47,808 bases of DNA. Origin: Candidatus Borkfalkia stercoripullorum. GTDB lineage: Bacteria > Bacillota > Clostridia > Christensenellales > Borkfalkiaceae. Below are positions 11,925 to 47,808 of the stretch, in pieces; positions within the stretch are counted from its first letter, which is position 1; every line of letters begins with the position of its first letter. The notes under the pieces are model-generated. The model did not search any database. It was not told the origin of the DNA and saw only the letters and a list, made by a program, of their open reading frames with translations. A program made the position numbers and the translations under genes. The stretch lies in assembly GCA_019119395.1 (NCBI GenBank), contig DWXC01000025.1, forward strand, positions 1-47,808, written 5' to 3'.

Positions 11925-11969
11925 CGTTTAAATTTTCGTTTAAATTTTGAAAAATATGCAACGATATGC

Positions 11970-33431: not shown

Positions 33432-33450
33432 CTTATAAAAACACGGGTAT

Positions 33451-33598
33451 TCACGAAAACCTCGGCAAGATGTTGCCTGCGGTTTTCCGTGAGTTTTAGG
33501 GGAAACCCATGCGGCTTTCCCCTCTGTCCGCGATATTTAAGGGCACGCATAATATATAATCGCGGACATTCACCCCTTCCGTGAGCCAAGGTGTTGGC
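33451..33598 (-). repeat. Structured repeat unit U1
   Basis: Minus strand, 5' to 3': P0 stem GCCAA/TTGGC (33585-33598), joint ending GGTGAAT, P1 GTCCGCGAT/ATCGCGGAC (33526-33534 with 33559-33567) with GCCCTTAAA in its loop, short P2 GGGGAAA/TTTCCCC (33499-33522), joint CTAAAAC, P3 TCACGG...CGTGA (33451-33492) with CGCAGGC and GCCGAG on its inner sides. The unit is preceded by a small A/T hairpin (33642-33657). Confidence 0.8.
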
Positions 33599-33662
33599 AA
33601 ACAGGGGTGCGCTGCGGAAAATTGCGATTTCCCTTGCGCGAATTATTATAAAATAATCCCGC

Positions 33663-33694
33663 GAAAAAGCAAAAACCACGTTTTTTGCTTTTTC
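33663..33694. repeat. Perfect hairpin ahead of unit U2
   Basis: GAAAAAGCAAAAA (33663-33675) with TTTTTGCTTTTTC (33682-33694). A 15-bp version with a related loop occurs at 47568-47603, in the opposite orientation. Confidence 0.8.
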
Positions 33695-33703
33695 ACTCAA
33701 TTT

Positions 33704-33880
33704 GGCAACGCTTTGCCTTACGGGAAGAGGGTGAATTTGCGCCCTTGCAAAATATGTGTGCCCCTAAAAGGGCGCAAAGAGCGGAGAAACCGTTGCCGAG
33801 CCGACGATAATCGGCGAACAACGGTGTCGCCCTAAAACTCACGAAAATTCGCAGGCGGCGTCCCGCCGAGAATTTTGTGA
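33704..33880 (+). repeat. Structured repeat unit U2
   Basis: P0 GGCAA/TTGCC (33704-33717), joint ending GGTGAAT, P1 TTTGCGCCCTT/AAGGGCGCAAA (33736-33746 with 33768-33778) with GCCCCTAA in its loop, P2 ACCGTTG/CAACGGT (33789-33825) holding an inner GCCGA/TCGGC stem, joint CTAAAAC, P3 TCACGAAAATTC/GAATTTTGTGA (33839-33880). It has the same order as U1 and U3 with different stem bases. Confidence 0.85.
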
Positions 33881-33897
33881 ACACAAATATTTACTTG

Positions 33898-33929
33898 CTT
33901 ATTCCGAAAATCGCACTTTTCGGAATAAG
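33898..33929. repeat. Perfect hairpin ahead of unit U3
   Basis: CTTATTCCGAAAA (33898-33910) with TTTTCGGAATAAG (33917-33929). A shorter inverted counterpart lies at 47520-47543, likewise just ahead of a unit. Confidence 0.8.
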
Positions 33930-33939
33930 CCCCCGATTT

Positions 33940-34113
33940 GCCGCGATGCGCGGCTTGCCGAAAAAGAGTGAATGCGAAAATTGCTATAATAGGAAAGCCC
34001 CTAAAAATTTTCGCAGAGAGAAAAACGCCGCAGAGCCGACCTTGTGTCGGTGAACGGCGGTTGTCTCTCAAAATCACGACTTTCCGCAGTGCCTTTGCGC
34101 GAGGAAAGTGTGA
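33940..34113 (+). repeat. Structured repeat unit U3
   Basis: P0 GCCGCG/CGCGGC (33940-33954), joint ending AGTGAAT, P1 GCGAAAATT/AATTTTCGC (33974-33982 with 34006-34014) with GCCCCTAA in its loop, P2 GAGAG/CTCTC outer (34016-34069) with CGCCG/CGGCG and an inner GCCGAC/GTCGGT stem, P3 TCACGACTTTCC/GGAAAGTGTGA (34074-34113). It ends 6 nt before the nrdG stop codon. Confidence 0.85.
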
Positions 34114-34119
34114 ATACGT

Positions 34120-34806
34120 TCACGATTCCCCTCTTATCTTTGTATTCGGTATAAAGGGGAGCAAAAGCCGCTTGAAGGCTTCCAGTTCCCCGTCGGAAAA
34201 GGGGGTAAGCCCTTCGGCGAGCACCGTGTCGGAATCGCGGAAGTTCTGCAAAAAGTACGCCTGCGCGCCTTTGAGCCATTGCCCGATCCTGAGCATGTCC
34301 TCGGCGCGGTGCAGCTGCTTTACGACGGTCGTGCGGAATTCGTATCCGACCGCCCCGCTCATGAGAAACGCCGCGCTCTCTTTGATCTTGCCGACGTCGA
34401 CATCCGCTCCCGCCGTTTTCGCGTAGCGCTCGGGCGAATTTTTGATATCCATGGCGACGCGGTCGACAAGCCCTTCGCCGCACAGCTCTTTCAGCCTTTC
34501 GGGGAAGGCGCCGTTCGTGTCCAGCTTTACGCTGTAGCCGAGGTCTTTGATCTTCCCGATAAATTCCCCGACGTCCGCGTGGATGAGCGGTTCCCCGCCC
34601 GAAACGCAAACGCCGTCCAAAAGTCCCCGCCGTTTATTTAAAAAAGCGAAAAATTCCTCTTCGGAAATATCCGAAACGCCGCCGTCCAGGATTTCCGAAT
34701 TCTGGCAGAACGGGCAGCGGAAGTTGCATCCGCTCAAAAAAACGGTGCAGGCCACTTTGCCCGGGTAATCCAGGAGCGTGGTTTTTTGCAGTCCGGCAAG
34801 TTTCAT
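34120..34806 (-). CDS. nrdG: Anaerobic ribonucleotide reductase activating protein
   Basis: 228 residues. Radical-SAM enzyme that puts the glycyl radical on NrdD. The iron-sulphur motif CNFRCPFC lies near residues 27-34, after LQKTTLLDYPGKVACTVFLSG, and SGGEPLI follows. The length is that of the longer activase group (NrdG2-like), not the ~155-residue E. coli type. It is separated from nrdD by an ~840-bp non-coding block and has its own promoter, so the two are not one operon. GAAGGAGAGG lies before the ATG. Confidence 0.93.
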   Translation of the reverse strand: MKLAGLQKTTLLDYPGKVACTVFLSGCNFRCPFCQNSEILDGGVSDISEEEFFAFLNKRRGLLDGVCVSGGEPLIHADVGEFIGKIKDLGYSVKLDTNGAFPERLKELCGEGLVDRVAMDIKNSPERYAKTAGADVDVGKIKESAAFLMSGAVGYEFRTTVVKQLHRAEDMLRIGQWLKGAQAYFLQNFRDSDTVLAEGLTPFSDGELEAFKRLLLPFIPNTKIRGES

Positions 34807-34826
34807 CCTCGTTACCTCTCCTTCAT

Positions 34827-34855
34827 ATTATAACGCGCCGTACGGCAAAAAGCAA
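34827..34855 (-). promoter_or_regulatory. nrdG promoter
   Basis: Minus-strand TTGCTT (34850-34855), 17-bp spacer, TATAAT (34827-34832). Confidence 0.75.
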
Positions 34856-34968
34856 TCGGAAAGCGGAAACAAAAATTTTTGAATTTTCATCTAAATATCA
34901 TAATTGTGTAAAAGTTTTAACAAAAGAGTGGTATAATGGCGGTATCCAAATCAAAGGGGACTTGTTTT

Positions 34969-36432
34969 ATGAAAAGGACATACCGCATTGTATTGGCGCT
35001 GCTGGCGCTCTTGCTCGCGCTTTCCCTCGCGCTTGCGGGATGCGCCTCGCAGGGCGACGCGGCGGCATATGTCGTATCCATCGCGCAGACGGGCGAAACG
35101 GAAAACGGCGAAAGCGAATTCACCGTCACTTATTCGGACGGGTCGACGTCCACCTTTACCGTGAAGAACGGCGAGGACGGGGAGGACGGCGCCGTCACGG
35201 CGGAGGATCTTTACGAGGAATACAAAAAACAGACGGGCGACGACGGCATCACTTACGGGCAATTCCTCGAAAAGTATCTCGACGTGACCGTTTCCGAGGA
35301 CAATTCTGCCGCGGTCGCGAAGGCTCTGCTCTCTTCCGTGCGCGTCTACTCGGAGTACCGCACGACGGAATATACTTCTTCGGGCGGTTGGGGCGGCATC
35401 GGCGTGCGCCCGACGAACACGGTCGGCTATTCCACGGGCGGCGGCGTCGTGTTCGCCATGGACGATACATACACCTATATCGTCACCAACTACCACGTCG
35501 TGTACAGCACGGACGCGAACGAGGACAACGGTTCGAACTTCGGGCGCAGGTTCTTCTGTTACCCGTACGGCACGTCGGAGGCGCCGGTGTCTTCGGGCAC
35601 GCAGGACGAGGACGGTTACGATATCCTCGATTACGGCGAAACCGCCTTCGAATGCGAATACATCGGCGGCGCGGCGTCCCTCGACGTGGCCGTTCTGCGC
35701 GCAAAGACGGAAGACGTTCTCGCCGTGAACGAAAGCATAACCGCCGCGGGGTTCGCGGACGGGTACACCGTGGGCGAAACGGCGATCGCGGTCGGCAATC
35801 CCGAGGGCGAGGGCATGAGCGTCACGCAGGGCATCGTCAGCGTAGACAGCGAATATATCAGTCTCTCCACCGACGGCACGACCCGTTCGCACCGTTCCAT
35901 GCGCATCGACGCGGCGCTGTACGAGGGCAACTCGGGCGGCGGCGCGTTCAACGCGGACGGCGAACTCATCGGGCTCGCCAACGCGGGCGACGGCACGAAC
36001 CAGAACGTCAATTACGCCATTCCGGTCTCCATAGTCGAGGGCGCGGCGGAAAACATCGTCGCAAATTATACGGCAAACGGCGAAGCGACGGGGGTCACCC
36101 GCCCGACGCTCGGCGTCACCGTCAACATCGAAAACAGCAAATACGTCTATGACGAAAGCACTTCTTCGGGCAGGATCGCGGAAACGATCGAAGTGAGCGA
36201 TGTGACGGCCGGCTCTATCGCCGAAACGCTCGGCCTGCAGGAGGGCGACGTGCTCACGGCGTTTATCGTCAACGGCGTTTCGCATGAGATCGGCCGTTCC
36301 TTCGAGATCGGCGACCTGCTCCTCACCGTGCGCGCGGGCGATACGGTCGCGCTGGCATACGAAAGGAGCGGCGAGAGCGCGCAGACGGCGGCGCATACCC
36401 TTATCTCTTCCGATTTTTCCGTGGTGGAATAA
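34969..36432 (+). CDS. HtrA/DegP-like serine protease lipoprotein with PDZ domain
   Basis: 487 residues. Signal peptide with lipobox LAGC (Cys25), so a surface-anchored enzyme. An acidic ~100-residue linker precedes a trypsin-like domain whose catalytic triad is visible: His176 (TNYHVV), Asp239 (SLDVAVLR), Ser322 (EGNSGGGAF). A diverged PDZ domain follows (about 380-480, GSIAETLGLQEGDVL). HtrA-type proteases degrade misfolded exported proteins. AAAGGGG lies about 10 nt before the ATG and TATAAT at 34932-34937. Members usually have a membrane anchor rather than a lipid one. Confidence 0.9.
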   Translation: MKRTYRIVLALLALLLALSLALAGCASQGDAAAYVVSIAQTGETENGESEFTVTYSDGSTSTFTVKNGEDGEDGAVTAEDLYEEYKKQTGDDGITYGQFLEKYLDVTVSEDNSAAVAKALLSSVRVYSEYRTTEYTSSGGWGGIGVRPTNTVGYSTGGGVVFAMDDTYTYIVTNYHVVYSTDANEDNGSNFGRRFFCYPYGTSEAPVSSGTQDEDGYDILDYGETAFECEYIGGAASLDVAVLRAKTEDVLAVNESITAAGFADGYTVGETAIAVGNPEGEGMSVTQGIVSVDSEYISLSTDGTTRSHRSMRIDAALYEGNSGGGAFNADGELIGLANAGDGTNQNVNYAIPVSIVEGAAENIVANYTANGEATGVTRPTLGVTVNIENSKYVYDESTSSGRIAETIEVSDVTAGSIAETLGLQEGDVLTAFIVNGVSHEIGRSFEIGDLLLTVRAGDTVALAYERSGESAQTAAHTLISSDFSVVE

Positions 36433-36472
36433 GAAATTGAAATTTACGGAGCAAAATTAAAAGGTTCAGGCG

Positions 36473-36505
36473 TCGGGCGCGGCAATATTGCCGCGCCCGA
36501 TTTTT
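36473..36505 (+). terminator. Terminator after the HtrA-like gene
   Basis: A perfect 28-bp palindrome (36473-36500), arms TCGGGCGCGGCAAT and its complement, followed by TTTTT. Confidence 0.88.
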
Positions 36506-36520
36506 CTTCGGTTCATTCGG

Positions 36521-36549
36521 TTGCTTCCTGTCCGCCTCTGTGTTATAAT
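36521..36549 (+). promoter_or_regulatory. Promoter of the glycosyltransferase gene
   Basis: TTGCTT (36521-36526), 17-bp spacer, TATAAT (36544-36549). Confidence 0.75.
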
Positions 36550-36579
36550 GAAACGGTATTATGAGAAAGGAAAAATGAA

Positions 36580-37971
36580 ATGGATCTTACGCTCAAAATT
36601 TTTGATATAGCGCTCAAAGTCATCGTGGTGATGATGTGCTACCGCTATCTCTATCTCATCGTCGGCTTTTTCGGCAAAGCGAAAGTTTTCCCCGATGCGA
36701 AAAAAGAGCATACGTACGCCGTCGTCATCTGCGCCCGCAACGAGGAAAAGGTCATCGGCAATTTGCTCGACAGCATCGCCGCGCAGCGGTATCCGAAAGA
36801 CAAGCTCCGCGTTTTCGTGATAGCCGACAACTGTACCGACGCCACCGCCGCCATCGCGCGCGAAAAGGGCGCAACGGTGTACGAGCGGCACGACCCCGCG
36901 CACGCTCGCAAAGGCTGGGCGCTCGAATTCGGTTTTAATAAAATACGCGAAGAGTTCGGCATAGACTTCGTGGAAGGGTACATGATATTCGATGCGGACA
37001 ACCTTCTGCGCCCCGATTTCGTCAAAGAGATGAACAAGGCGTTCGACGAAGGCAAACTCGACGTCATCACGGGCTACCGCAACACCAAAAATTTTGACAC
37101 GAACGGCATTTCCGCCGCATACGGCATCCATTTTTACCGCAGTTCGCTCAACTGGCACCGCGCGCGGCAGATTTTCCACACGTCCACCCACCTCGCGGGC
37201 ACGGGGTACGTCATCCGTTCCAAATGGCTGGAAGGCGGCTGGAAGTGGTTCTGCCTTACCGAGGATACGCAGTTTACCTACGAGGTCATATCCCGCGGAG
37301 GGAGGATCGGCTACTGCGAAGCGGCGGAATTTTTCGACGAACAGCCTACGGGCTTCGGTACGGTCTTAAAACAGCGCCTGCGCTGGATCAAGGGCCGCCT
37401 GTACGCCTTTTTCGCTTACGGCTACAAACTCATCGCGGGGCTGTTCCGCAAGGGGACGAACAAGTGGGCGTGCTACGATATGTTCTTTTACGGTTTCCCG
37501 TACGGCTTGGGCGCCGCTCTGCTTGCCATAGCCTCTTTTTTGGTCGGCTTTATCGGCACGGCGGTCGGCGCGGGCTGGTCGGGTATCCTGCAAGAATATT
37601 TGACGCTCGGCATGCTGAAAAGCATCGGCATCGCCGCGCTCGGATTTTGGTTGCTCAACACGGTCACGGCGCTGCTCGTCGTCATACGCGAGCGCAAAAA
37701 AATACATTGTTCCAAGCCTAAACTCGCGCTGTATATCGTCTTGTTTTTCTGGTTCGACCTCATCGGGTCGCCGCTTGCCATCGTTTCCCTCTTCATGCGC
37801 GTTACGTGGAAGAAGATAAAGCACGACGACCCGACGAAGATCGGCGACCTTGTCGCCGATACGTCCGCTTCTGGCGAAGCGGACGATACCGTTCCTTTAT
37901 CGGAAGAAAAAACCGACGTTCCGGCTGCCGGCGGCGAAGGCGGCGAAGACGGCGAAGGCGGCGCGCGGTAG
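36580..37971 (+). CDS. Membrane glycosyltransferase, family 2
   Basis: 463 residues. One N-terminal membrane helix (about 10-32), a cytosolic GT2 domain (about 45-290) with ICARNEE, DNCTD, the metal-binding FDADN, TEDTQFT and the processive-type QRLRW, then several membrane segments (about 300-420) and an acidic Glu/Gly-rich tail. The pattern matches cellulose/hyaluronan synthase-like enzymes that make and export a polysaccharide, but the sugar is not readable. The ATG at 36580 is spaced 8 nt from AAAGGA; a second ATG at 36575 is in another frame. A small membrane protein gene follows after 17 nt. Confidence 0.88.
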   Translation: MDLTLKIFDIALKVIVVMMCYRYLYLIVGFFGKAKVFPDAKKEHTYAVVICARNEEKVIGNLLDSIAAQRYPKDKLRVFVIADNCTDATAAIAREKGATVYERHDPAHARKGWALEFGFNKIREEFGIDFVEGYMIFDADNLLRPDFVKEMNKAFDEGKLDVITGYRNTKNFDTNGISAAYGIHFYRSSLNWHRARQIFHTSTHLAGTGYVIRSKWLEGGWKWFCLTEDTQFTYEVISRGGRIGYCEAAEFFDEQPTGFGTVLKQRLRWIKGRLYAFFAYGYKLIAGLFRKGTNKWACYDMFFYGFPYGLGAALLAIASFLVGFIGTAVGAGWSGILQEYLTLGMLKSIGIAALGFWLLNTVTALLVVIRERKKIHCSKPKLALYIVLFFWFDLIGSPLAIVSLFMRVTWKKIKHDDPTKIGDLVADTSASGEADDTVPLSEEKTDVPAAGGEGGEDGEGGAR

Positions 37972-37988
37972 AGCGTGCGGAGGTTCGC

Positions 37989-38243
37989 ATGAAAAACCGG
38001 AAAACGACGCCCGCGCAATATAAGAGCGCGATCGCGGGGCTCACGCCTCCGTTTATCATCATAGAAGTGATGTTCGCGGCGCTCGCCGCATATCTGTTTG
38101 TCGCCTATTCCGAGCGGCCGATATACGGCGGGGTGTTCCTCATCCTCGCGGGGGTGCTGGCGGCGGTATACGTCGCCATGCTGCTCGTTCTGCGCAAAAA
38201 GGCGAAAAAAGCCGCCGAAAGGGAGAAAAACGATAAACGATAA
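37989..38243 (+). CDS. Small two-TM membrane protein beside the glycosyltransferase
   Basis: 84 residues, unknown. Short polar start, two hydrophobic helices (about 20-42 and 47-68), then a strongly basic tail (LRKKAKKAAEREKNDKR). GGAGG precedes the ATG and the gene is 17 nt from the glycosyltransferase, so the two are probably co-expressed. It may be a small partner of the synthase. A terminator follows. Confidence 0.7.
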   Translation: MKNRKTTPAQYKSAIAGLTPPFIIIEVMFAALAAYLFVAYSERPIYGGVFLILAGVLAAVYVAMLLVLRKKAKKAAEREKNDKR

Positions 38244-38254
38244 AAAATTCCGTG

Positions 38255-38288
38255 GCGCCGCCGCAGGATTTCCTGCGGCGGCGCTTTT
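38255..38288 (+). terminator. Terminator after the glycosyltransferase operon
   Basis: GCGCCGCCGCAGGA (38255-38268) with TCCTGCGGCGGCGC (38271-38284), then TTTT. Confidence 0.88.
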
Positions 38289-38407
38289 CGTTTGCCCTGC
38301 GGATATATTTTTGTCATTGTTATAAATTCTTTCAAACCCGGCAATAAAAGCGGGGTAAATAACGGCGGGGCGGCGCGGCCGCCCGCCCGAACGTGGCAGG
38401 AGATCGC

Positions 38408-38935
38408 ATGAAAAAATATTGCATAGTTTTTGTTTTACTCTTCATAATAATCTTGACGGCGGCGGTATGCGCCCGGCCCGAAGACGGCACGGCGGCGGCA
38501 TACCTGCGCCTGCACGTGCGCGCCAATTCCGACTCCGCCGCCGACCAGGCGGTCAAATACGAGGTCAAAGAGGCGATCGTGGAATATCTCACGCCGGTCG
38601 CCGCGTCCGCTGAAAGCAAGGAGGAGGCTGTCGCCGCGCTCGAAGCGGCTCTTCCCGGGATCGAAAGGACGGCGAACGCCGTGCTCGCGGAAAACGGGTT
38701 TGCCTACCTTTCGCGCGCCGAGATCCGCGCGGAGGAATTCCCCACCCGCGTTTACGACGGGGTGACCCTCGAGGCGGGCGTGTACGACGCGCTCATCGTC
38801 GAACTCGGTTCGGGCAAAGGCGCGAACTGGTGGTGCGTCGTCTATCCGCCCCTGTGCTTTGCGGGGGAAACGGGCGCAAACGTGCAATACCGCTCCCGCA
38901 TCTGGGAGATCATACACGATTTTTTCGCGGATTAA
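38408..38935 (+). CDS. spoIIR: Stage II sporulation protein R
   Basis: 175 residues. Signal-like N-terminal helix, then LRLHVRANSDSAADQAVK and the late GANWWCVVYPPLCF, both hallmarks of SpoIIR. It is secreted from the forespore toward the mother cell and triggers SpoIIGA to process pro-sigma-E. The start at 38408 has AGGAG 7 nt upstream. It points to real spore-forming ability together with sleB-ypeB just downstream. Confidence 0.93.
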   Translation: MKKYCIVFVLLFIIILTAAVCARPEDGTAAAYLRLHVRANSDSAADQAVKYEVKEAIVEYLTPVAASAESKEEAVAALEAALPGIERTANAVLAENGFAYLSRAEIRAEEFPTRVYDGVTLEAGVYDALIVELGSGKGANWWCVVYPPLCFAGETGANVQYRSRIWEIIHDFFAD

Positions 38936-38984
38936 AACATACCGTCCTGCGAAAAAAGCGTATTTTTATCGGAGGACAGAAAGG

Positions 38985-39731
38985 ATGAAAAGATCGATCA
39001 AAGTTCTCGCCCTGTCGCTCACCCTTGCGGCGTCCGTCGCCGCGGGCGCGGCGCTCGCGCTCCCCGAACGGTTCGCGCGGGAGGAGCAGGCGATCTGCGG
39101 CATGGCGGAAGAGGCTGCCGTTTTGAAGCAGGGCAGCACCGGCAGCCTGGTCAGAACGGTTCAGACAAAACTCAAACGCTGGGGGTATTACGACGGCTCG
39201 GTGGACGGCATTTACGGTTCGAAAACCAAAAAGGCCGTCGTCTATTTTCAGAAAAAGAACGGGCTTACGGCCGACGGCATCGTCGGCAAAAAGACGTTCG
39301 CCGCCCTCGGCATGATGAACGAGGCGAACGGCGGCTCGTCGGGATCTTCGGGTTCGGCGTCGGGCACGAACGGCTATACGAGTTCGGACGTGTACCTTTT
39401 GGCGCGCTGTATTTACGGCGAAGCGCGCGGCGAGTGTTACGAAGGGCAGGTGGCGGTCGGTGCGGTCGTTTTGAACCGCGTCAAAAGCCCTTCCTTCCCC
39501 AACACGATATCGGGGGTCATCTATCAGAAGGGCGCGTTCACCGCTGTGGACGACGGGCAGATCAACCTCACGCCCAACCAGACCGCCGTCAATGCCGCCA
39601 AGGACGCGATGAACGGCTGGGATCCGACCTACGGGTGCCTGTATTATTACAACCCCGTCACGGCGACGAGCCAGTGGATCTTCTCGCGCGAGACGGTCAC
39701 GACCATCGGCAAGCACGTGTTTGCCATTTAA
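38985..39731 (+). CDS. sleB: Spore cortex-lytic enzyme SleB
   Basis: 248 residues. Signal peptide (about 1-26), a peptidoglycan-binding domain (about 47-107, LKQGSTGSLVRTVQTKLKRWGYYDG), a Gly/Ser linker, then a hydrolase 2 domain (about 135-248) with the catalytic Glu146 in YGEARGECYEGQVAVGAV. SleB is a lytic transglycosylase that opens muramic-delta-lactam cortex during germination. GGAGG and AAGGA precede the ATG. Only 10 nt separate it from ypeB, its partner. Confidence 0.93.
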   Translation: MKRSIKVLALSLTLAASVAAGAALALPERFAREEQAICGMAEEAAVLKQGSTGSLVRTVQTKLKRWGYYDGSVDGIYGSKTKKAVVYFQKKNGLTADGIVGKKTFAALGMMNEANGGSSGSSGSASGTNGYTSSDVYLLARCIYGEARGECYEGQVAVGAVVLNRVKSPSFPNTISGVIYQKGAFTAVDDGQINLTPNQTAVNAAKDAMNGWDPTYGCLYYYNPVTATSQWIFSRETVTTIGKHVFAI

Positions 39732-39741
39732 GGAGGGAAAA

Positions 39742-41457
39742 ATGAAAGAGCAGGACAAAGAATATTCCAGCGGCGCGGAAAAGGTGGAAAACATCGCCGA
39801 AGGGCAGAACGTGTTCGAGGACGCGGCCGTCGGCAGCGAAATGCAGGGCGGCGCGGCGAACGGCGGCGCGCGGGAACATGCCGACGCCGCGGCAGAGCGC
39901 GAACGCGTACAGCGCGCCCGCATCGAACGGGAAAACGCCCGCGCGGTCAAAAGGCTCGAAGCCGCAAAGCTGAAAGCGGAGAGCAAGCAGAACAAACAAA
40001 AGGCGAAGGCGGACGCAAAGGCGGCGCGCGCCATGCGCAAAGAGGAGCAGAAAGCGCGCCGCGCGCAGGAAAGGCGTTCCCGCCGCGGGGAGGAAGAGCC
40101 GCACGGCGACGGCGGCGGAAAAAAGCATAAAGACCGCGCGCCCGGGTTCGGCGGCTGGCTCGCCGCGGTCATTTCCCTCGGCGTCGCGGTGCTCGCCCTC
40201 GGCGCGATCGTCACCGTCGGGTATTTCGATCTGACCGAAGCCAAGGCCGGCCTTTATAACGGCTATCAGAGTTCCGTCTACGAACTTGCCGAACTCGTCG
40301 AAAACATGGACGCGAACCTCGCCAAGGCGCGCGTCGCTTCGGGGAATTACGAAACGCAGAAGGTGCTCACCGATATCCTCGTCGAAAGCGAACTTGCGGA
40401 AAGCTGCCTGCAATCTTTCCCGATCGACGGGCACGACACGGAAAACCTGACGGCGTTCATCAACCGCGTGGGGGATTATTCGCGCGATCTTCTCAACCGC
40501 CTCGCGCTCGGCGGCGAAATTTCCGAAAAAGAGCAGGAAGTCATCGAGTATATGTACGGCACCATGCACGAAGTCAAATTCGCCCTTGCCGACGTCATCG
40601 TAAACGGCCGCGAGAAGAACATCGACGACGTGCTGAAAGAGGGCGGGTTTGCCGACCGCTTCAAAACGCTGGAAAACGACACGATCCAGACCCCGAAAAT
40701 GATCTACGACGGGCCGTTCGCAAAATCCGCGCAGCGCGGCGGGTGCAAGGCGCTCGAAGGGCTTGCGAAGATGAGCGAGGGCGAGATCCTCGAAAAGGCG
40801 CGCGAAGTGTTTTCGGGCTACGGCGTAAAGGAAGTGAACGCGCTCGGCAAAACGGAGAGTAAGACCGCGCCCTGTTACGGGGTCGAGATCAGAACGGAAA
40901 CGGGCGAACGCTATTTCGCGCAGTTCACCGAGCGGGGCGGCAGGCTGATGCTTTTGGACGGCTATAAAGAATGTAAGGACAAAAACTTCGATTCCGAAGC
41001 CTGCATCGCCATTGCGGAAAAATTCCTCGGCGGCCTCGGCTACGACGGCTTGCGGCCCGTATGGGTGAGCGAGTCGGGCGTGCAGTGCGACATCAATTTC
41101 GCATACGTGCAAAGCGGCGTCGTCTGCTATAACGACCTCATCAAGGTCAAAGTGTGCGAGGAGCGCGGCGCGGTCACGGGGCTGGAAGCGCGCTCGTACC
41201 TGATGAACCATACCGAGCGGGAGATCCCCGCGCCTTCCCTTTCCAAATCGAAGATCGAAAGGGCGGCGGCGGCCCGCATGGAACTTACGGGCGTGCGCCT
41301 GGCGCTCATCCCCGTGGAAGGGCAGGAAACGCTCGCCTACGAGATCAACGGCACGCACGGCGGGACGGAGTACTATGCGTATCTCGACGCAAAGACGGGC
41401 CGCATGGTCGAACTCTTCACCGTAGTCGACTCGGGCGCGGGCAGGGCATTGATGTAA
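39742..41457 (+). CDS. ypeB: Germination protein YpeB with a long charged N-terminal extension
   Basis: 571 residues. The C-terminal ~440 residues are YpeB: one membrane helix (about 138-163, LAAVISLGVAVLALGAIV), a helical region, the conserved YDGPFAKSAQ, and PepSY-type repeats to the end. YpeB stabilises SleB in the spore. The first ~135 residues are a highly charged Glu/Lys/Arg/Ala coiled region with no counterpart in Bacillus YpeB, predicted to be on the cytoplasmic side. AGGAGG lies 5 nt before the ATG, so the extension is really translated. Confidence 0.9.
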   Translation: MKEQDKEYSSGAEKVENIAEGQNVFEDAAVGSEMQGGAANGGAREHADAAAERERVQRARIERENARAVKRLEAAKLKAESKQNKQKAKADAKAARAMRKEEQKARRAQERRSRRGEEEPHGDGGGKKHKDRAPGFGGWLAAVISLGVAVLALGAIVTVGYFDLTEAKAGLYNGYQSSVYELAELVENMDANLAKARVASGNYETQKVLTDILVESELAESCLQSFPIDGHDTENLTAFINRVGDYSRDLLNRLALGGEISEKEQEVIEYMYGTMHEVKFALADVIVNGREKNIDDVLKEGGFADRFKTLENDTIQTPKMIYDGPFAKSAQRGGCKALEGLAKMSEGEILEKAREVFSGYGVKEVNALGKTESKTAPCYGVEIRTETGERYFAQFTERGGRLMLLDGYKECKDKNFDSEACIAIAEKFLGGLGYDGLRPVWVSESGVQCDINFAYVQSGVVCYNDLIKVKVCEERGAVTGLEARSYLMNHTEREIPAPSLSKSKIERAAAARMELTGVRLALIPVEGQETLAYEINGTHGGTEYYAYLDAKTGRMVELFTVVDSGAGRALM

Positions 41458-41458
41458 A

Positions 41459-41628: not shown

Positions 41629-41681
41629 TCTTTCATTGTACGGGTATCATAAGAACTGCGCGTTTCGCGTAAGTCGGGCGG

Positions 41682-41909: not shown

Positions 41910-41928
41910 GTCAATATTTTAGCAAATT

Positions 41929-41965
41929 CTACGCGATTCGCGTTGATATTACGCGAATCGCGTAG
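41929..41965. promoter_or_regulatory. Paired palindromic operators between XRE and the Cys-rich gene
   Basis: CTACGCGATTCGCGT (41929-41943) and ACGCGAATCGCGTAG (41951-41965) form a 15-bp inverted repeat with a 7-nt spacer. Each arm contains its own perfect palindrome, CGCGA-T-TCGCG (41932-41942) and CGCGA-A-TCGCG (41952-41962), centres 20 bp apart, about two helical turns. This fits two dimers of the XRE protein binding side by side. Confidence 0.75.
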
Positions 41966-42010
41966 TAAAATAATGATAAACGAAAAAACTTTGGAGAAAG
42001 GGGTCGGCTT

Positions 42011-42292
42011 ATGGAAACAGAAAAAACCTGCGAGAACTGTAAATTTTTTGTCCCTTATTATATAAAGAGGCGGTCGCACTTTTATCCCGTGCAGAGCGGC
42101 GTCTGCGAAAACGAGACACTCCGTTGCAGAGACAGGCGGAAGCGTAATCCCGAACCGTGCGGCCTTTGGCAAAAAGAGGACGGCGAGCACGCCCGCGGCG
42201 AACGGGCCGCCGTAGAAAGCGCGCTTCTTGCCATGGCAAAGCACGTCGAAGAGATCGCTCTCATTCTCCGTTCGCAGAGCAAAGACGAATGA
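42011..42292 (+). CDS. Small Cys-rich protein divergent from XRE
   Basis: 93 residues, no named function. CENCKFFVPYY near residues 7-17, then SGVCEN and NPEPCGLW, giving four Cys that could bind a metal ion; the C-terminal third is a helix. Similar short proteins with CxxCxxF...C...C..W occur beside XRE regulators in Clostridia. AAAGGGG lies about 8 nt before the ATG. It is probably repressed through the twin palindromes upstream. Confidence 0.7.
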   Translation: METEKTCENCKFFVPYYIKRRSHFYPVQSGVCENETLRCRDRRKRNPEPCGLWQKEDGEHARGERAAVESALLAMAKHVEEIALILRSQSKDE

Positions 42293-42404
42293 TAAAAATA
42301 TTTGATTTCTGCATTGTTTCCCGTGGAGCGCAAAATGTAAAAATTGTGCACCGTTTCAAACTTCTTGCCGAAAGGTGCGAAATTATGTAAAATAAAAATA
42401 AAAA

Positions 42405-42456
42405 CCCGCGGAGACGGCGTTCCCGAACGGGCGTTCGGCGGGGCGGTCTCCGCGGG
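42405..42456 (-). terminator. Terminator of the kinase-GNAT gene
   Basis: CCCGCGGAGAC (42405-42415) pairs with GTCTCCGCGGG (42446-42456). On the minus strand it is followed by TTTTTATTTTTATTTT. The gap 42293-42404 shows nothing else clear. Confidence 0.75.
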
Positions 42457-42500
42457 GCGCGCCCTTGCGGGCGGCGGCGTTTTAACTTTGGCGCGGCGTT

Positions 42501-43433
42501 TTAAATTTTCAAGTCTTTGCGCATCTGAACGTGCGGCACGCCCTCTTCGGGGAACTGTTCTCCGAACGCGGCGTAGCCGCATTTTTCGTAGAAGCCCTGC
42601 GCGCGCACCTGAGCGCACAGGGTCAGCGCGGCTGCGCCGTCCTGCCGGGCGCATTCTTCCGCCGCGCGCAGAACGTACCTGCCCAGCCCCTGCCCGCGGA
42701 ATTTCTTCCGCACCGCGATCCTGCCGACGGTGAAAGCGCCGTCCTCTTCCGCGGCGAAATATCTGCAGCACGCGGCGGGTTCGTCGCCTTTATAAAAAAC
42801 GAGGTGGCGGCAGTTATTGTCCCGCCCGTCGAATTCGCTCGCAAATCCCTGTTCGTCCATGAACACCTCTTCGCGGATGAGCCGCCCTTCGTCCGTAAGG
42901 AAAGGCGTGTTTTTGTACGGGAGCAGGTTTGTTTCGCCCCGCACCGTCTCCGCGATCGATTCCGCCGTCTGCGCGGGGGTAAGGCGGCTGTTGTCGATCT
43001 TATAGGAAAGCATTTTCCCGAACCTTTCGGCCCGCTCTTCGCTGCGCGCAAAAATGCCGCCGCTGCGTTTGCCGCATTCCGCGTCGCGGGTAAGCCGCTC
43101 GCGGAGCGTCTTTTTGTCCGCCGTCAGGGTGAAGAGAAAAAAGCGGCACTTTTCCGCGGGGATGCGGGAGAGTATGGTTTTTACGATGTCCTCTTCGTGC
43201 ATCACCCAGCAGAATATGATGTTTTCGAACAGCCCGCTCTCTATAAATCCCGAAAGCGCCGCGGAAATATTCGCCAGAACGAGTTTTTCGGAAGTTTCGT
43301 TCACGGTGAATGGGTTCATGTCCCAAAAGTTGTCGCCGTCGGCAAAAACGCACGGCGGCACGATTTTTTGCAGGGCGCGCGCCGTCGCCGTTTTGCCCGC
43401 GCCCATCGTTCCGTTGATAAAGATGAGGTTCAT
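42501..43433 (-). CDS. Fusion of a P-loop kinase-like domain and a GNAT acetyltransferase
   Basis: 310 residues. First half: P-loop NTPase with Walker A GTMGAGKTA (residues 7-15), resembling small nucleotide or shikimate-type kinases (VFADGDNFWDMNP). Second half (about 170-310): GNAT domain of the YjcF/ElaA sort with acetyl-CoA motif RKKFRGQGLGRYVL and QVRAQGFYEKCGY. Substrates are unknown. The ATG at 43433 directly begins the Walker A strand. A promoter (43440-43468) ends 6 nt before it and no ribosome site exists, so translation is probably leaderless. An ATG 6 codons upstream would fall within the -10 region. Confidence 0.85.
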   Translation of the reverse strand: MNLIFINGTMGAGKTATARALQKIVPPCVFADGDNFWDMNPFTVNETSEKLVLANISAALSGFIESGLFENIIFCWVMHEEDIVKTILSRIPAEKCRFFLFTLTADKKTLRERLTRDAECGKRSGGIFARSEERAERFGKMLSYKIDNSRLTPAQTAESIAETVRGETNLLPYKNTPFLTDEGRLIREEVFMDEQGFASEFDGRDNNCRHLVFYKGDEPAACCRYFAAEEDGAFTVGRIAVRKKFRGQGLGRYVLRAAEECARQDGAAALTLCAQVRAQGFYEKCGYAAFGEQFPEEGVPHVQMRKDLKI

Positions 43434-43439
43434 GAAGCA

Positions 43440-43468
43440 AGTGTAACACAAAACCCGCCCGATGTAAA
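43440..43468 (-). promoter_or_regulatory. Promoter of the kinase-GNAT gene, leaderless geometry
   Basis: Minus-strand TTTACA (43463-43468), 17-bp spacer, TACACT (43440-43445). The predicted start point coincides with the A of the ATG. Confidence 0.55.
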
Positions 43469-43593
43469 GCGCGGGGGCGTTTTTTCTTCAGGCTTTTCGC
43501 CGCGGCGGCGGAACAAAACTTCGGGCGCGGGTAAACAAACGGCGGGCGGGCCGCATAGTATGGAATGATTTCATTGCAACGGGAGGGCTCGGT

Positions 43594-44250
43594 TTGTATA
43601 AAATATTATCGCCTGAAACGGTGACGGTCGCCGAGGGCGCGGTCATCGAGGACGGGGTCGTCATCCATTCGGGCAACGTGATCGGCGGCTCGGTCATCCT
43701 GCGGCGGGGCGCGGTGCTGTACCCCAACAACATCGTCGAAGATTCGGAGATCGGCGAGGAAGCCGAACTGACGGCCAGCGTCGTGCGGGGCGCGAAGGTC
43801 GGGCGCGGCGCGAAGGTCGGCCCATTCGCCAATCTCCGCGCGGGCGCGGTGGTCGGAGAAAACTGCCGCGTCGGCGATTTCGTGGAGATCAAAAACGCGG
43901 CCGTCGGCGCGGGGAGCAAAATCAGCCACCTCGCGTACGTGGGCGACGCGCGCGTGGGCGAAAACGTCAACATCGGCTGCGGCGTCGTGTTCTGCAATTT
44001 CGACGGAAGATCGAAGCATTTCACCGAGGTGGGCAGCGGCGCGTTCATCGGCAGCAACGCCAACCTCGTCGCACCCGTCAGGATCGGCGAAAACGCGTTC
44101 GTCGCCGCGGGCACGACCGTCACGCGCGACGTGCCCGCGGGCGCGTGCGTCATCGGCAGGGTGCGGCAGGAAGAGAGCGAGGGTATCCGCAAAAAGCGCT
44201 GTAAAAGTTCTCCCGGGGAAGGCTCCCGCGGGGAAGGGGGCGGGCTGTGA
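43594..44250 (+). CDS. Stand-alone GlmU-type acetyltransferase domain (left-handed beta helix)
   Basis: 218 residues from a TTG start with GGGAGG about 7 nt upstream. Hexapeptide repeats (IGGSVI, VGRGAKVGPFANLRAGAVVGENCRVGDFVEIKNA) form a left-handed beta helix. KNAAVGAGSKISHLAYVGDARVG and FVAAGTTVTRDVPAGA match the C-terminal acetyltransferase half of GlmU, which acetylates glucosamine-1-phosphate. The N-terminal uridyltransferase half is absent, so UDP-GlcNAc completion must need another enzyme. It overlaps glmM by 4 nt and leads the operon with glmM and glmS. Confidence 0.85.
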   Translation: MYKILSPETVTVAEGAVIEDGVVIHSGNVIGGSVILRRGAVLYPNNIVEDSEIGEEAELTASVVRGAKVGRGAKVGPFANLRAGAVVGENCRVGDFVEIKNAAVGAGSKISHLAYVGDARVGENVNIGCGVVFCNFDGRSKHFTEVGSGAFIGSNANLVAPVRIGENAFVAAGTTVTRDVPAGACVIGRVRQEESEGIRKKRCKSSPGEGSRGEGGGL

Positions 44251-45548
44251 GCGCGCTGTTCGGCACGGACGGTATCCGCGGCGTCGCGGGGGAAGAACTC
44301 ACGTCCCGCACGGCCTTCGCCCTCGGCAACGCGCTTTCCCGCCTCAAACAAAACCCCTGCGTGATCGTCGGGGAAGATACCCGCGTCTCTTCGGATATGC
44401 TCGCGCTCGCGCTGGCGGCGGGCGTCGCTTCGGGCGGGGGCGAGGTGCTCTGGGGCGGCGTCCTGCCCACGGCGGCAGTCTCTTACTGTGTCGCGGAGCG
44501 GAAGGCGGACTTCGGCGTCGTCGTCAGCGCGTCGCACAACCCCGCAAAGTACAACGGGCTGAAAGTGTTCGCGTCGGACGGGCGCAAACTTCCCGAAAAG
44601 CAGGAAAAGCGGTGCGAACATTACATGATGGGCGAATACGCCTTTGCCGGCCCGCTCTCCATGGGCAGGGTGCGTCCCCTCGGCGGGGCGGAGGGGTATG
44701 CTGCGCACCTTGCGGCGTGCTGTTCCCGCCCGCTCAAAGGCAAAAAATTCGCGCTCGACTGCGCCAACGGCGCGGCGGGGAAAATCGCGCCCGAAGTTTT
44801 TGCGCGCCTGGGCGCGGAAGTCGTCGCGTCGGGCGTCAACCGCGGCGGGCTCGACGTGAACGAAGGCTGCGGCGCGCTCCACCCCGAACGCATCCGCGCG
44901 ATGACCCTCGAATCGGGCGCGGACGCGGGCTTCGCTTACGACGGAGACGCCGACCGCCTCGTCGCCTGCGACGAAAAGGGGAACATTGTTGACGGGGATA
45001 AGATCCTCTGCATTTTCGCCGCCCGCATGCAGGCGGACGGGAGTATGCGCGAAAGCGTCGCCGTGGGCACGACGCACACCAATACGGGCGCGGAGAATTT
45101 CCTCAAAAAACTCGGAATCCGCCTCATCCGCACCGACATCGGCGACAAATACGTCGCCGACGCGATGCAAAAGAGCGGCGCGCAGATCGGCGGCGAACAG
45201 TCGGGGCATATCATCCTCTCCGATTACGCTGTCACGGGAGACGGCATCCTGACGTCGGTGAAACTTGCGGAACTGGTCGCGGAAAAGAAACTTTCCCGCC
45301 TTGCGGACATCAGAATGCTCCCGCAGTACAACGCGAGCGTCAGGGTCAAAGACAAGGTGCGCGTCCTCGGCGACGAATACCTGCGCGGCTTCATCGACCG
45401 CGCGCGGCGGGGCGTTTCGCGCCTGGTGGTGCGCGCCTCGGGTACGGAACCCGTCGTGCGCATCTTTGCCGAGGCGGAGAGCATGAAGCAGGCAAGATCC
45501 GCCGTCGAGCGGGTTCGGGCGGAAATTCAGGCCGCCGAGGAGGGGTGA
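44247..45548 (+). CDS. glmM: Phosphoglucosamine mutase
   Basis: 433 residues from a GTG start overlapping the previous stop. Converts glucosamine 6-phosphate to glucosamine 1-phosphate. N-terminal FGTDGIRGVA, catalytic Ser in VVSASHNPAKYNGLK, Mg-binding DGDADR, sugar loop GEQSGHII and phosphate loop RASGTEPVVRI. It is slightly shorter than the usual ~448. It sits between the acetyltransferase and glmS; all three act in UDP-GlcNAc synthesis for peptidoglycan. Confidence 0.95.
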   Translation: MSALFGTDGIRGVAGEELTSRTAFALGNALSRLKQNPCVIVGEDTRVSSDMLALALAAGVASGGGEVLWGGVLPTAAVSYCVAERKADFGVVVSASHNPAKYNGLKVFASDGRKLPEKQEKRCEHYMMGEYAFAGPLSMGRVRPLGGAEGYAAHLAACCSRPLKGKKFALDCANGAAGKIAPEVFARLGAEVVASGVNRGGLDVNEGCGALHPERIRAMTLESGADAGFAYDGDADRLVACDEKGNIVDGDKILCIFAARMQADGSMRESVAVGTTHTNTGAENFLKKLGIRLIRTDIGDKYVADAMQKSGAQIGGEQSGHIILSDYAVTGDGILTSVKLAELVAEKKLSRLADIRMLPQYNASVRVKDKVRVLGDEYLRGFIDRARRGVSRLVVRASGTEPVVRIFAEAESMKQARSAVERVRAEIQAAEEG

Positions 45549-45549
45549 G

Positions 45550-47322
45550 ATGTGCGGGATCATCGGCTGCGTGAGCGATAAAGACTGCTACGGCGCGCTG
45601 TACGACGGGCTCAAACGCCTGGAATACCGCGGGTACGACTCCGCGGGTATCGCCGTTCTGGGCGAAAAACTGTCCGTATTCAAAAAGAAGGGCGGCGTTT
45701 CCAATCTGTCCGCGTTCTATGCGCGCGGCGGCACGGGCATAGGCCACACCCGCTGGGCGACGCACGGCGCGCCTTCGGACGCGAACGCGCACCCGCACCG
45801 CGCGGGCAAGATCGCCCTCGTGCACAACGGCATCGTGGAAAATTACGCGGCGCTCAAAGCGGAACTGGAGGGGGAGGGCGAACGCTTTTCGTCCGAAACG
45901 GACAGCGAAGTCATCGCAAAACTCATCTCCCGCGCCTACCGCAAAGACCTGCTTTCCGCAGTCCGCGAAGGCCTTTCGCGCGCGGAAGGCGCGTACGCCG
46001 TCGCCGTCGTCGCGGAGGATAGGCCGGGCGAGTTGGTCGCGGCGAAAAACAAAAGCCCGCTCGTGGCGGGCAAAGGGGCTTCGGGGCTGTTCGTCTGCAG
46101 CGATATCCCCGCGCTCGCGGGAACAGCCGACTTTATCGCCCGCGCCGAGGACGGGGATTTCATCCGCATCGCGGACGGGCGCATCGATTTTTTCGATAAA
46201 AATTTAAATCCGGTCTGCCGCGATTTTACCCGCCCGCGGGAAGAACTGCGCGCGCTGTCGGTCGCGGGCGGCGGGTATTTCATGCGCGCGGAGATCGGCG
46301 AGATCCCGCGCGCCCTCGAAGACACCCTTTCCGCGCTGAAAAACGCAGACTTTGCGCCCTGCGCCCGCGCTCTGCGCTCGGCGGAAAGGATATTCGCCGT
46401 CGCCTGCGGCACGGCGTTCCACAGCGCGCTCGTCTTTGCCGACGTCGCCGAGCGGGAAGCGGGCGTGCCCGTGCTTTGCTGTACGGCGGGGGAATTCCGC
46501 TACCGCCCGCCCGTCATCGGCGAAGGCGACGTGCTCGTCGCCGTCAGCCAGAGCGGGGAAACGGCGGATACGCTCGAGGCGGTGCGCCTCGCGAAATCGC
46601 GCGGCGCGTACGTCGTCGCCGTCACCAATATCGGCAGTTCTTCCATCGAATCGCTCGCGGATTTTTGCATCGTCATGCGCGCGGGCGCGGAGATCGCCGT
46701 CGCCGCAACGAAAAGTTATAACTGTCAGCTCCTGTGCCTGTATTACCTCGCGGCGCAACTCCTCTTTTTCAAACGTGCGCGCCTGCCCGAGTGGTTTTCC
46801 GCGCTCGACCGCCTGCCCGAAGCGGCGCAGGCAGCCTTTTCCTGCTTTGCGGAAGCGGACGCGCTCGCCGACCGGCTCAAAGGCGCGGGTGCGATGTATT
46901 TCCTCGGCAGGGGTACAGACCTGTGCACGGCAAAGGAGGGCGCGCTCAAAGTCAAGGAGATCGCCCGCGTGTTCGCCGAAGGTTATCCCGCGGGGGAACT
47001 CAAACACGGTTCGCTCGCGCTGGTGGGGGAGGGCTTCCCCGTCGCGTGTATTTCGACTTGCGCGGCGCTTTTAAAAAAGAGCGAAAGCGCCCTCGCCGAA
47101 GTAAAATCGCGGGGCGGGTATTGCGCGCTCTTTTCGCAATATCCCCGGGCATTGGCGGAAAGCTGTGCCGATTTCAAATGCCTGCTCCCCGCCCTGCCCG
47201 AAGCGCTCATGCCCGCCGTCGCCGTCATCCCGCTGCAATATTTTGCCTATAAAATGTGCATCGGGCGGGGGTTCGATCCCGACAAGCCGCGCAACCTGGC
47301 AAAGAGCGTGACGGTGGAGTGA
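45550..47322 (+). CDS. glmS: Glutamine-fructose-6-phosphate aminotransferase (isomerizing)
   Basis: 590 residues. Makes glucosamine 6-phosphate from fructose 6-phosphate and glutamine. Catalytic Cys2 after Met (MCGIIGCV), LEYRGYDSAGIA, GHTRWATHG in the glutaminase half; two SIS domains with ACGTAFHSALV, SQSGETADTLEA, GYPAGELKHG and the end DKPRNLAKSVTVE. There is 1 nt between glmM and glmS, so no room for a glmS ribozyme; sugar feedback at this gene must work in another way. A structured repeat unit begins 6 nt after the stop. Confidence 0.96.
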   Translation: MCGIIGCVSDKDCYGALYDGLKRLEYRGYDSAGIAVLGEKLSVFKKKGGVSNLSAFYARGGTGIGHTRWATHGAPSDANAHPHRAGKIALVHNGIVENYAALKAELEGEGERFSSETDSEVIAKLISRAYRKDLLSAVREGLSRAEGAYAVAVVAEDRPGELVAAKNKSPLVAGKGASGLFVCSDIPALAGTADFIARAEDGDFIRIADGRIDFFDKNLNPVCRDFTRPREELRALSVAGGGYFMRAEIGEIPRALEDTLSALKNADFAPCARALRSAERIFAVACGTAFHSALVFADVAEREAGVPVLCCTAGEFRYRPPVIGEGDVLVAVSQSGETADTLEAVRLAKSRGAYVVAVTNIGSSSIESLADFCIVMRAGAEIAVAATKSYNCQLLCLYYLAAQLLFFKRARLPEWFSALDRLPEAAQAAFSCFAEADALADRLKGAGAMYFLGRGTDLCTAKEGALKVKEIARVFAEGYPAGELKHGSLALVGEGFPVACISTCAALLKKSESALAEVKSRGGYCALFSQYPRALAESCADFKCLLPALPEALMPAVAVIPLQYFAYKMCIGRGFDPDKPRNLAKSVTVE

Positions 47323-47328
47323 GGGGGT

Positions 47329-47505
47329 TCACACAAATTGCGCGCAAAGGCACGCAATTTGTCGTGATATTTAGGAAACCCCCAACGTTCGCCGTTTTGC
47401 AAACGGCTCTGCGTTCGGATTTTTCCTCTTCGGCGCTTTATAAGGGCTTGCACTATTACGCATGCGCCGAATTCACCTTTCCTGCCCGAGGCCGCGCGCC
47501 GCGGC
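47329..47505 (-). repeat. Structured repeat unit U4
   Basis: Minus strand: P0 GCCGCG/CGCGGC (47491-47505), joint ending GGTGAAT, P1 TCGGCGC/GCGCCGA (47430-47436 with 47464-47470) with GCCCTTATAAA in its loop, P2 with AACG/CGTT (47384-47387, 47412-47415) and inner GCCGTTT/AAACGGC (47391-47407), P3 TCACGACAAATTGCG...GTGTGA (47329-47367). Preceded by a perfect hairpin at 47520-47543. Confidence 0.85.
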
Positions 47506-47519
47506 AAATCGGGGGCTTA

Positions 47520-47603
47520 TTCCGAAAAGTGTGATTTTCGGAAACGCAAGTGATTATTTAAGACATTGCGAAAAAGCAAAAAGCGTGGTTTTTGCTTTTT
47601 CGC
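47520..47603. repeat. Two perfect hairpins between units U4 and U5
   Basis: TTCCGAAAA (47520-47528) with TTTTCGGAA (47535-47543), and GCGAAAAAGCAAAAA (47568-47582) with TTTTTGCTTTTTCGC (47589-47603). Both are inverted counterparts of hairpins in the 33.6-33.9 kb block. Confidence 0.8.
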
Positions 47604-47617
47604 GTAATTGTTTGAGT

Positions 47618-47750
47618 TCACGAAAACCTCGGCAAGCTGATGCCTGCGAATTTTCGTGATTTGAGGGGAAACCCGAGCGCGCGTCGCAACAAGGCGATGA
47701 TGTGCATGCGGCGCATAATATTTGCCGCATAGCGTATATACGCTTGTTGC
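47618..47750 (-). repeat. Structured repeat unit U5 (diverged)
   Basis: Minus strand: outer stem GCAACAAG/CTTGTTGC (47686-47693 with 47743-47750) around ATGCGGC/GCCGCAT (47706-47712 with 47724-47730), then GGGTTTCCCCT and P3 TCACGAAAATTC...TTTTCGTGA (47618-47659), nearly identical to the P3 of U1 and U2. The upstream part differs from the other units. Confidence 0.7.
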
Positions 47751-47756
47751 TCCTTT

Positions 47757-47801
47757 TTCCCAAAAATCTCACACCGCTGCGCGCGTTGCGATTTTTGGGA
47801 A
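47757..47801. repeat. Hairpin at the window end, probable part of another unit
   Basis: TTCCCAAAAATC (47757-47768) with GATTTTTGGGAA (47790-47801) and a P3-like interior. The array probably continues beyond the window. Confidence 0.6.
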
Positions 47802-47808
47802 CCCTATT

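Follow-up and report, generated by a model that had tools for sequence, protein, structure and literature searches.

The window analysed here, the whole 47,808-nt stretch of contig DWXC01000025.1 in the assembly GCA_019119395.1 of Candidatus Borkfalkia stercoripullorum, carries two arrays of a repeated element which is built of five hairpins (P-1, P0, P1, P2 and P3) and occurs in most genomes of the genus. With chances that we judge to be about even, the element is a non-autonomous mobile DNA repeat of the composite palindromic type, similar in kind to the bacterial interspersed mosaic elements (BIMEs) and the BOX elements, and acts by way of its folded single strand; its mobility and its mechanism are what we infer. 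We prefer this reading because the copy number within the genus runs from 0 to at least 146 per genome, orthologous stretches free of units exist, the units are joined in a rigid geometry, P3 bears a bulge in one arm, and P1 and P3 show a peculiar pattern of wobble pairing.

Each unit is 190-235 nt long, with a core of 136-184 nt in most matches of the home genome (that of the window) and a linker of about 52 nt. Read from 5' to 3', it consists of an AT-rich start of about 11 bases, P-1, P0, GTGAA, P1, GAG, P2, a joint, P3 and a final GTGAA. The preliminary description of this DNA had listed the hairpins from P0 to P3, and that order is kept, to which a further 5' hairpin, P-1, has to be added in each copy. 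Among the loops are CCACGC, CGACGC and TCGCAC in P-1 and TACT, CGCT, TACC and TGCT in P0, the 3' side of the P1 loop resembles GTGCCCYTAAAA, the long form of P2 contains by eye an internal loop of the GAG/GAA type, and the joint between P2 and P3 is CTCAAA-like. GTGAA directly precedes P1 in 64 of 76 copies of the home genome and 87 of 103 copies of the genus, and it is also the most frequent 3' end (62/76 and 54/103), followed in the genus by GCGAA, GAGAA and GTGAG. The 5' arm of P3 has a clean one-base bulge in 63/71 home and 87/92 genus copies; the bulged base is a purine, G or A, in 65 home and 90 genus copies and never a pyrimidine, and an extra base stands opposite to it in no home copy and one genus copy (1/163 overall). 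The best stems exceed those of simple shuffles for both 5' hairpins, with 5.5 against 2.4 for P-1 (76 copies) and 3.2 against 2.0 for P0 (62 copies).

The arrangement of the units, counted for adjacent non-overlapping units at most 300 nt apart, follows strict rules. In the home genome all 13 pairs of opposite neighbours are head-to-head (a minus unit, then a plus unit) with gaps of 95-98 nt, and 29 neighbours run in the same direction, at gaps of 51-56 nt in 21 cases and from 12 to 178 nt in the others. The five relatives compared, with 150 matches listed, gave 16 head-to-head pairs (11 of them with gaps of 96-98 nt) and 4 tandem ones. Tail-to-tail neighbours, i.e. plus then minus, were absent both from the home genome and from the matches listed for the five relatives. 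If the order within the 14 mixed arrays of the home genome were random, the chance of this outcome would be 8e-7, one of these arrays (C34:40272-40523) being doubtful owing to overlapping weak matches. The centre of a head-to-head pair is formed by two P-1 hairpins flanking an AT-rich core, and the P3 ends point outward in all mixed arrays seen. Such two-armed arrays are bounded by TTCACG-P3 on one side and P3-CGTGAA on the other, the P3 stems at the two ends may differ, and the first base beyond the matched end is a pyrimidine at 43 of 55 ends.

To count copies, two covariance models were used: R1, built from 19 copies including those of the window, and R2, built from the alignment A3 of 47 copies at 29 loci in other genomes only, which had themselves been found with R1. 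The search of the home and related genomes with a covariance model, which the preliminary description had called for, revealed at least 87 R1 matches (E <= 0.001) in the home genome and many in its relatives of the genus. The home matches fall into 42 arrays of 1-4 matched units, and their number is a lower bound, as scoring covered the best 150 of 1369 first-look candidates; the weakest of the matches share part of their span with others. R1 matches occurred in 36 of 61 genomes, namely 35 of the 37 of the genus (the home genome included) and 1 of 24 from other genera. With R2 ten other genomes of the genus spread from 0 (G002 and G005), 1 (G033), 2 (G004) and 4 (G014) to at least 31 (G030), 62 (G008 and G012), 74 (G016) and 146 (G013), the counts being lower bounds wherever 150 candidates were scored. 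In an order-wide sample 17 of 297 genomes and 8 of 125 genera matched, with weaker relatives in other genera; among these are eight genomes of a sister genus and G065 of a more distant family, whose units, by eye, keep P-1, P0, GTGAAT, P1, AGAGAG, P2 and P3 with different stems. As a separate observation, 15 of the 42 home arrays are at most 500 nt away from a contig end. Because of this, the repeat probably breaks the assembly at contig ends, and the home copy numbers are then too low.

Comparison among species shows that sites are occupied in some and free in others. Seven array sites of the home genome were searched in five relatives by their joined flanks, and 20 orthologous stretches at six of the sites were chosen by hand: 11 are unit-free (a count that is not a rate, given the choice by hand), 2 have nothing but P3-like pieces and 7 contain units, often of another type than the home units. 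Of the two with P3-like pieces, the one in G008, at the window site, has a single palindrome from TTCACG to CGTGAA, and the one in G034 has remnants. A survey of the gap between fabG and fabF (a fabF match in 33 of 37 genomes, 30 loci fetched) found gaps of 41 bp in G016 and 43 bp in G019; in many other species, judged by eye, the gap is filled with arrays or with remnants. Copies exchange their hairpins as modules, because the left unit of the G008 fabG|fabF gap is a hybrid whose P1 arms are of two types, and because 5 of 60 tests on 59 copies of the home genome showed every one of the four combinations of P1 and P3 types. We also tried the solo P3 as a mobile unit of its own and rejected it, one exact pattern searched in 8 genomes giving a single place, in G008. 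Several further observations were made. A second hairpin module, CCCAAAAATC..GATTTTTGGG with a GCGGCAAATAT-type stem, is inserted in units of several species, by eye always in the P1 region in the copies read (window 47757-47801 and loci L093, L105, L112, L197, L198, L199 and L201). The fabG|fabF gap holds a different, very AT-rich low-complexity stretch at L117, L120 and L123 (G020, G010 and G023), and at L131 (G030) another repeat type, GTCATCCTGAGC-like, beside remnants of the element. Two stretches, G012:C6 and G012:C22, are 100% identical to flanks of the home genome, other flanks being 83-95% identical, and G012:C17 holds a second copy of the C6 stretch at 86%, which points to either mis-binned contigs or recent exchange.

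The preliminary description had further proposed that pairing is kept while bases change and that the fold itself is therefore under selection. The former is borne out by the alignment A5 of 103 genus copies at 53 loci, in which 93.2% of the cells pair against 65.5% in shuffles and the covariation score is 0.557 against 0.166 shuffled and 0.08-0.13 with partners slid, the covariance alignments being fitted to the structure. Under a tree-aware null, which re-places substitutions at random and ignores recombination, 24 of 43 pairs are significant at E <= 0.05; thus adding copies did not bring covariation down to background. Nine pairs that do not belong to the structure are significant too; all are in P3, a hairpin in which two module types differ. 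As for the latter proposal, only part of it stands. Counting unique stems, P1 and the P3 base contain 21 G-T (1.8% of pairs) and 18 A-C (1.6%), against 68 G-T (8.7%) and 12 A-C (1.5%) in the RNase P RNA of 23 genomes of the same genus; by Fisher's test this G-T/A-C ratio differs from that of RNase P (p = 0.0005) and from that of P2 (p = 0.002), values that are rough since unique stems are not independent draws. The control comprised 23 of 26 sequences above cut-off (L239, L244, L245 and two weak matches were dropped), aligned by MAFFT, the pairing being that of Rfam for one sequence, and its terminal helix supplies 10 of the 12 A-C cells. Among unique stems differing at one pair, both sides had changed in 32 of 40 cases for P3 against 40 of 87 for RNase P (p = 0.0004), and in 14 of 28 for P1, which does not differ from RNase P. 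Because whole hairpins are exchanged between copies, such two-sided changes can arise without compensatory mutation; this exchange, together with the wobble pattern of P1 and P3, is why selection on the fold is not established for every helix; only P2 behaves like an RNA helix. The pairing counts point to P1 and P3 being palindromes kept at the DNA level. We would read their upkeep as exchange, template-switch correction and selection for a folding strand, and P2 as being read as one folded strand. An example of template-switch correction is quasipalindrome mutation in E. coli, as described in the part of PMC7202029 available to us.

Within the window, the model R2, whose sequences all come from other genomes, recovers U1 to U4, which were described before as copies of one element, with E values of 1e-37 (U1), 4e-49 (U2), 3e-37 (U3) and 1e-35 (U4). 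Each P1 stem quoted in that description also occurs with its complement. The first array opens with the U1 core (33450-33603, minus strand), seen in model matches, fold and alignment and reading from right to left as P0-GTGAA-P1-P2-P3-GTGAA, and its P-1 hairpin (33604-33640, minus), one of those among the 13 head-to-head centres examined. U1 makes a head-to-head pair with U2 across an AT-rich junction, AATTATTATAAAATAAT, at 33641-33657, in a centre of 95 nt that is one of the 13 at 95-98 nt. U2 has its P-1 at 33661-33696 (plus strand, an inverted repeat) and its core at 33699-33881 (plus; model matches and fold), in which P0 lies at about 33704-33717, the GTGAA before P1 at 33731-33735, the P1 arms at 33736-33746 and 33768-33778, GAG at 33779-33781 followed by P2, and P3 at 33839-33880 with the last GTGAA at 33877-33881. 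A 53-nt tandem linker (33882-33934, plus) containing the P-1 of U3 (33897-33930, an inverted repeat) leads to the U3 core at 33935-34114 (plus; model matches and fold). In the second array the U4 core (47328-47510, minus; model matches and fold) is followed by its P-1 at 47511-47550 (minus, from the sequence), and the 106-nt interval between U4 and U5 holds an orphan P-1 hairpin (47568-47603, minus, an inverted repeat), probably the remnant of a lost unit. U5 (47617-47808, minus), taken earlier for a diverged copy, is a copy indeed (E 7.5e-10), and divergence alone does not describe it: P3 and P2 have an ordinary appearance, the P1 region contains the inserted module (an inverted repeat at 47757-47801) that by eye is present in other copies too, and the unit is cut by the contig end, so U5 is included among the 15 arrays near contig ends. 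Fold energies compared with dinucleotide shuffles gave z values of -5.2 (U1), -3.5 (U2), -5.7 (U3) and -3.6 (U4), 2 of 200 shuffles being as good as U4. There is also a weak R2 match (E 0.011) at 11803-11953 of the plus strand, which may be a chance hit or the remnant of an old copy.

The arrays sit between genes, for whose identification we used NCBIfam-named genes only, the automatic gene calls being unreliable owing to antisense open reading frames (ORFs) in this GC-rich genome. The first window array has nrdD (30916-33279, minus) on one side and nrdG (34120-34806, minus) on the other, and the second begins 6 nt past the end of glmS. Other home arrays occupy the gaps fabG|fabF, prmC|prfA and dprA|topA, and one stands before hisS; the name dprA rests on a score of 190.3, under the cut-off of 191.15. 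Both orientations of the unit occur between the co-directional genes of nrdG|nrdD, fabG|fabF, prmC|prfA and dprA|topA, and many array ends adjoin a ribosome-site region or a stop codon, as noted by eye and uncounted. At locus L093 (G000:C34, about 40523-41095) the space between a minus unit and plus units of one array holds two small ORFs that by eye look hydrophobic; they are possibly cargo or host genes. A scan of the first window array gave promoter-like matches at 2 places against 0.9 in shuffles, one of them at 33622-33649, and terminator-like sites at 5 against 1.4, including the tip of the U2 P3 (both strands) and the U2 P-1 hairpin (minus strand). Despite these five sites, we rejected the element as an intrinsic terminator, for there is no T run after the whole P3 stem.

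With respect to known families, the preliminary statement that the element belongs to no named RNA family agrees with Rfam, which gave no match at gathering score in the window and, for the array and 12 relative loci, only matches of E 0.12 or worse below it, none plausible; a known RNA family was rejected on these searches. An origin from phage, plasmid or virus was likewise rejected, the searches of phages and plasmids with the U2 region and of viral contigs with one degenerate pattern being empty, though a diverged relative could be missed by either. The literature naming Borkfalkia offered no repeat-themed title among the matches listed, and that on repeat and taxon terms named neither Borkfalkia nor Christensenellales among the matches listed; the repeat family is apparently undescribed. 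BIMEs and BOX elements are its nearest kinds, from which it differs in architecture, joining rules and stem behaviour. It shares with the repetitive extragenic palindromic (REP) sequences, BIMEs and REPINs a high copy number, an intergenic palindromic make-up and inverted pairs (here 13/13 opposite neighbours head-to-head). Some strand-specific features also recall attC sites. The latter are substrates of folded single-strand DNA in which stems vary and structure, joints and extrahelical bases are kept, and here too an extrahelical base, the clean P3 bulge, would mark the strand. Unlike attC sites, which end in RYYYAAC according to the part of PMC8632094 available to us, the units end in GTGAA, and no gene cassettes and no expansion of integrases were seen. 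As to REP, the TnpA-REP of E. coli needs a conserved motif 5' of an imperfect, bulged palindrome and recognises REP and not the inverted REP (PMC8266576, in the part available to us), to which GTGAA before P1 and the strand-specific bulge in P3 are comparable features. In contrast, REP sequences are 20-50 nt long with GTAG (or CGTC) tags, whereas the present unit has 190-235 nt, a GTGAA joint and five hairpins, and, unlike the setting of the REP-associated tyrosine transposases (RAYTs), the home genome is without a Y1 transposase match. In the accessible part of PMC3733652, G-T pairs are described as frequent in the stems of GTAG repeats and taken as a sign of RNA function; they are rare here in P1 and P3. 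The BOX elements of Streptococcus pneumoniae are composites of hairpin modules with variable module number and 67-637 bp in length, judged parasitic and similar to miniature inverted-repeat transposable elements (PMC3049150, accessible in part). The Borkfalkia element resembles them as a modular hairpin composite of variable number with swapped modules. It differs, as far as a comparison by description goes, in that BOX has the order boxA-boxB(n)-boxC, for which that source reports terminal inverted repeats and target duplications, whereas in the Borkfalkia element it is the whole unit that is repeated, outward from a head-to-head centre, and the stems turn over. With the large structured RNAs of Rfam it has in common the multi-helix layout, conserved joints and strong covariation, and it is set apart by its rare wobble in P1 and P3 and by its copies per genome. 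Our suggestion is thus that the element may work like the REP system, without a claim that it is one.

As a mobile repeat, the element would be a discrete unit with fixed ends, namely the AT-rich 5' end and the 3' GTGAA after the bulged P3. Units stand alone or are joined, either in tandem through a linker of almost constant length or head-to-head around a centre that stays close to 97 nt; some orthologous sites are filled in one species and free in another, and copies exchange hairpin modules. The unit strand would fold once it is single-stranded, for example at the replication fork, and an enzyme supplied in trans may then read the folded strand, much as TnpA-REP reads REP hairpins, telling strand and end by the joints (GTGAA and GAG), the loops, the P2 core and the P3 purine bulge. 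The stems would need only to pair, which would allow drift and swapping, and the perfect palindromes of P1 and P3 would be kept by selection on the folded strand plus recombination or template-switch copying between arms. Effects on the genes adjoining the arrays would be secondary. A bolder proposal holds that this is a new class of mobile DNA, two-armed and with five hairpins, whose folded single strands are copied and joined by an enzyme that belongs neither to the Y1 transposases nor to the tyrosine recombinases or reverse transcriptases, with outward arrays, head-to-tail and head-to-head joining only, and stem sequence irrelevant as long as it pairs; we regard it as speculative and rather doubtful.

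A number of results weigh against a mobile repeat. The home genome has no match to the Y1 transposase (PF01797), and only a contig-edge fragment (profile 128-169) of the phage integrase PF00589; since this genome is 91.94% complete, one enzyme gene could be missing. PF01797 matches occur in 21 of 37 genus genomes, and their number does not rise with copy number (Spearman -0.23, p = 0.18, the top copy counts being at least 44), G001, G009, G032 and G035 being without Y1 matches at 44 or more element matches each. PF00589 counts do not track the copy number either, and RVT_1 was found in 4 of the 37 genomes (with 19, 35, 7 and 0 element matches) and not in the home genome. We therefore rejected spread by a RAYT/IS200-type transposase, an integrase or a reverse transcriptase, whose gene counts or occurrence do not track the copies. 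No transposase and no target-site duplication were found, the flanks being too diverged from unit-free orthologues for exact junctions, nor was an autonomous element with the same ends met in the loci read, where no systematic search was made. In the copies read, likewise without a systematic search, no coding transposon was seen of which they might be degraded pieces. Moreover, fabG|fabF is occupied in many species, as would also be expected if an old insertion had been followed by exchange. In unique stems P2, with 31 G-T and 4 A-C, shows no difference from RNase P (p = 0.77), and the P3 tip, with 5 and 2, leans to the RNA-like side; when all copies are counted (A2 and A3), G-T exceeds A-C in all helices except one A2 P2 helix, the near-equality in P1 and the P3 base being obtained by unique-stem counting only.

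These pairing counts belong among the grounds for regarding the element as a structured RNA, transcribed outward from the AT-rich centre or with neighbour genes, acting on mRNA processing or stability or as a small RNA, and multiplied because it is useful. The RNA-like ratio of P2, its conserved GAG/GAA-type internal loop and the excess of G-T over all copies fit such an RNA, as do the place of units between co-directional genes, the promoter-like match in the first array and its surplus of terminator-like sites. Yet unique P1 and P3 stems wobble little, with G-T close to A-C, unlike the RNase P of the genus; both orientations lie between the same genes, two species have 0 copies, promoter-like matches stay near the shuffled level, and a T run is missing after the whole P3 stem. 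We consider this explanation unlikely, with a chance that is small and still deserves attention. A somewhat weaker case can be made for passive palindromic repeats, without any dedicated enzyme, that are spread and homogenised by recombination, template switching and repair between existing hairpins. The hybrid P1 arms in G008, the four-combination tests, the two-sided excess among one-pair P3 neighbours and the insert modules in P1 loops are all what such processes would leave. Against this, the sharp borders, the spacings of about 97 and 52 nt and the fact that tail-to-tail pairs were never seen suggest that joining is an orderly reaction, and other families of the order have units of the same layout. 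We think that passive spread is improbable. Sites for chromosome organisation or topology, as proposed for BIMEs and selected at gene junctions, would suit the intergenic placement and the repeated occupation of fabG|fabF across species. However, two species of the genus without a copy found and three with 1 to 4 argue against an essential architectural role, and 11 of the 20 stretches chosen by hand are unit-free. This last explanation seems to us very improbable.

What the Borkfalkia element adds is an apparently undescribed repeat family of gut bacteria, which reaches at least 146 copies per genome at a genome size of about 2 Mb and is probably one cause of broken assemblies. It illustrates that strong covariation need not mean RNA, as the RNase P of the same genus passes a wobble test that the unique stems of P1 and P3 do not. 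If our reading is true, searches for new RNAs can take module exchange for compensatory evolution, and, if the element is mobile, it would imply a single-strand recombination system in these bacteria that is testable through its rigid joining rules.

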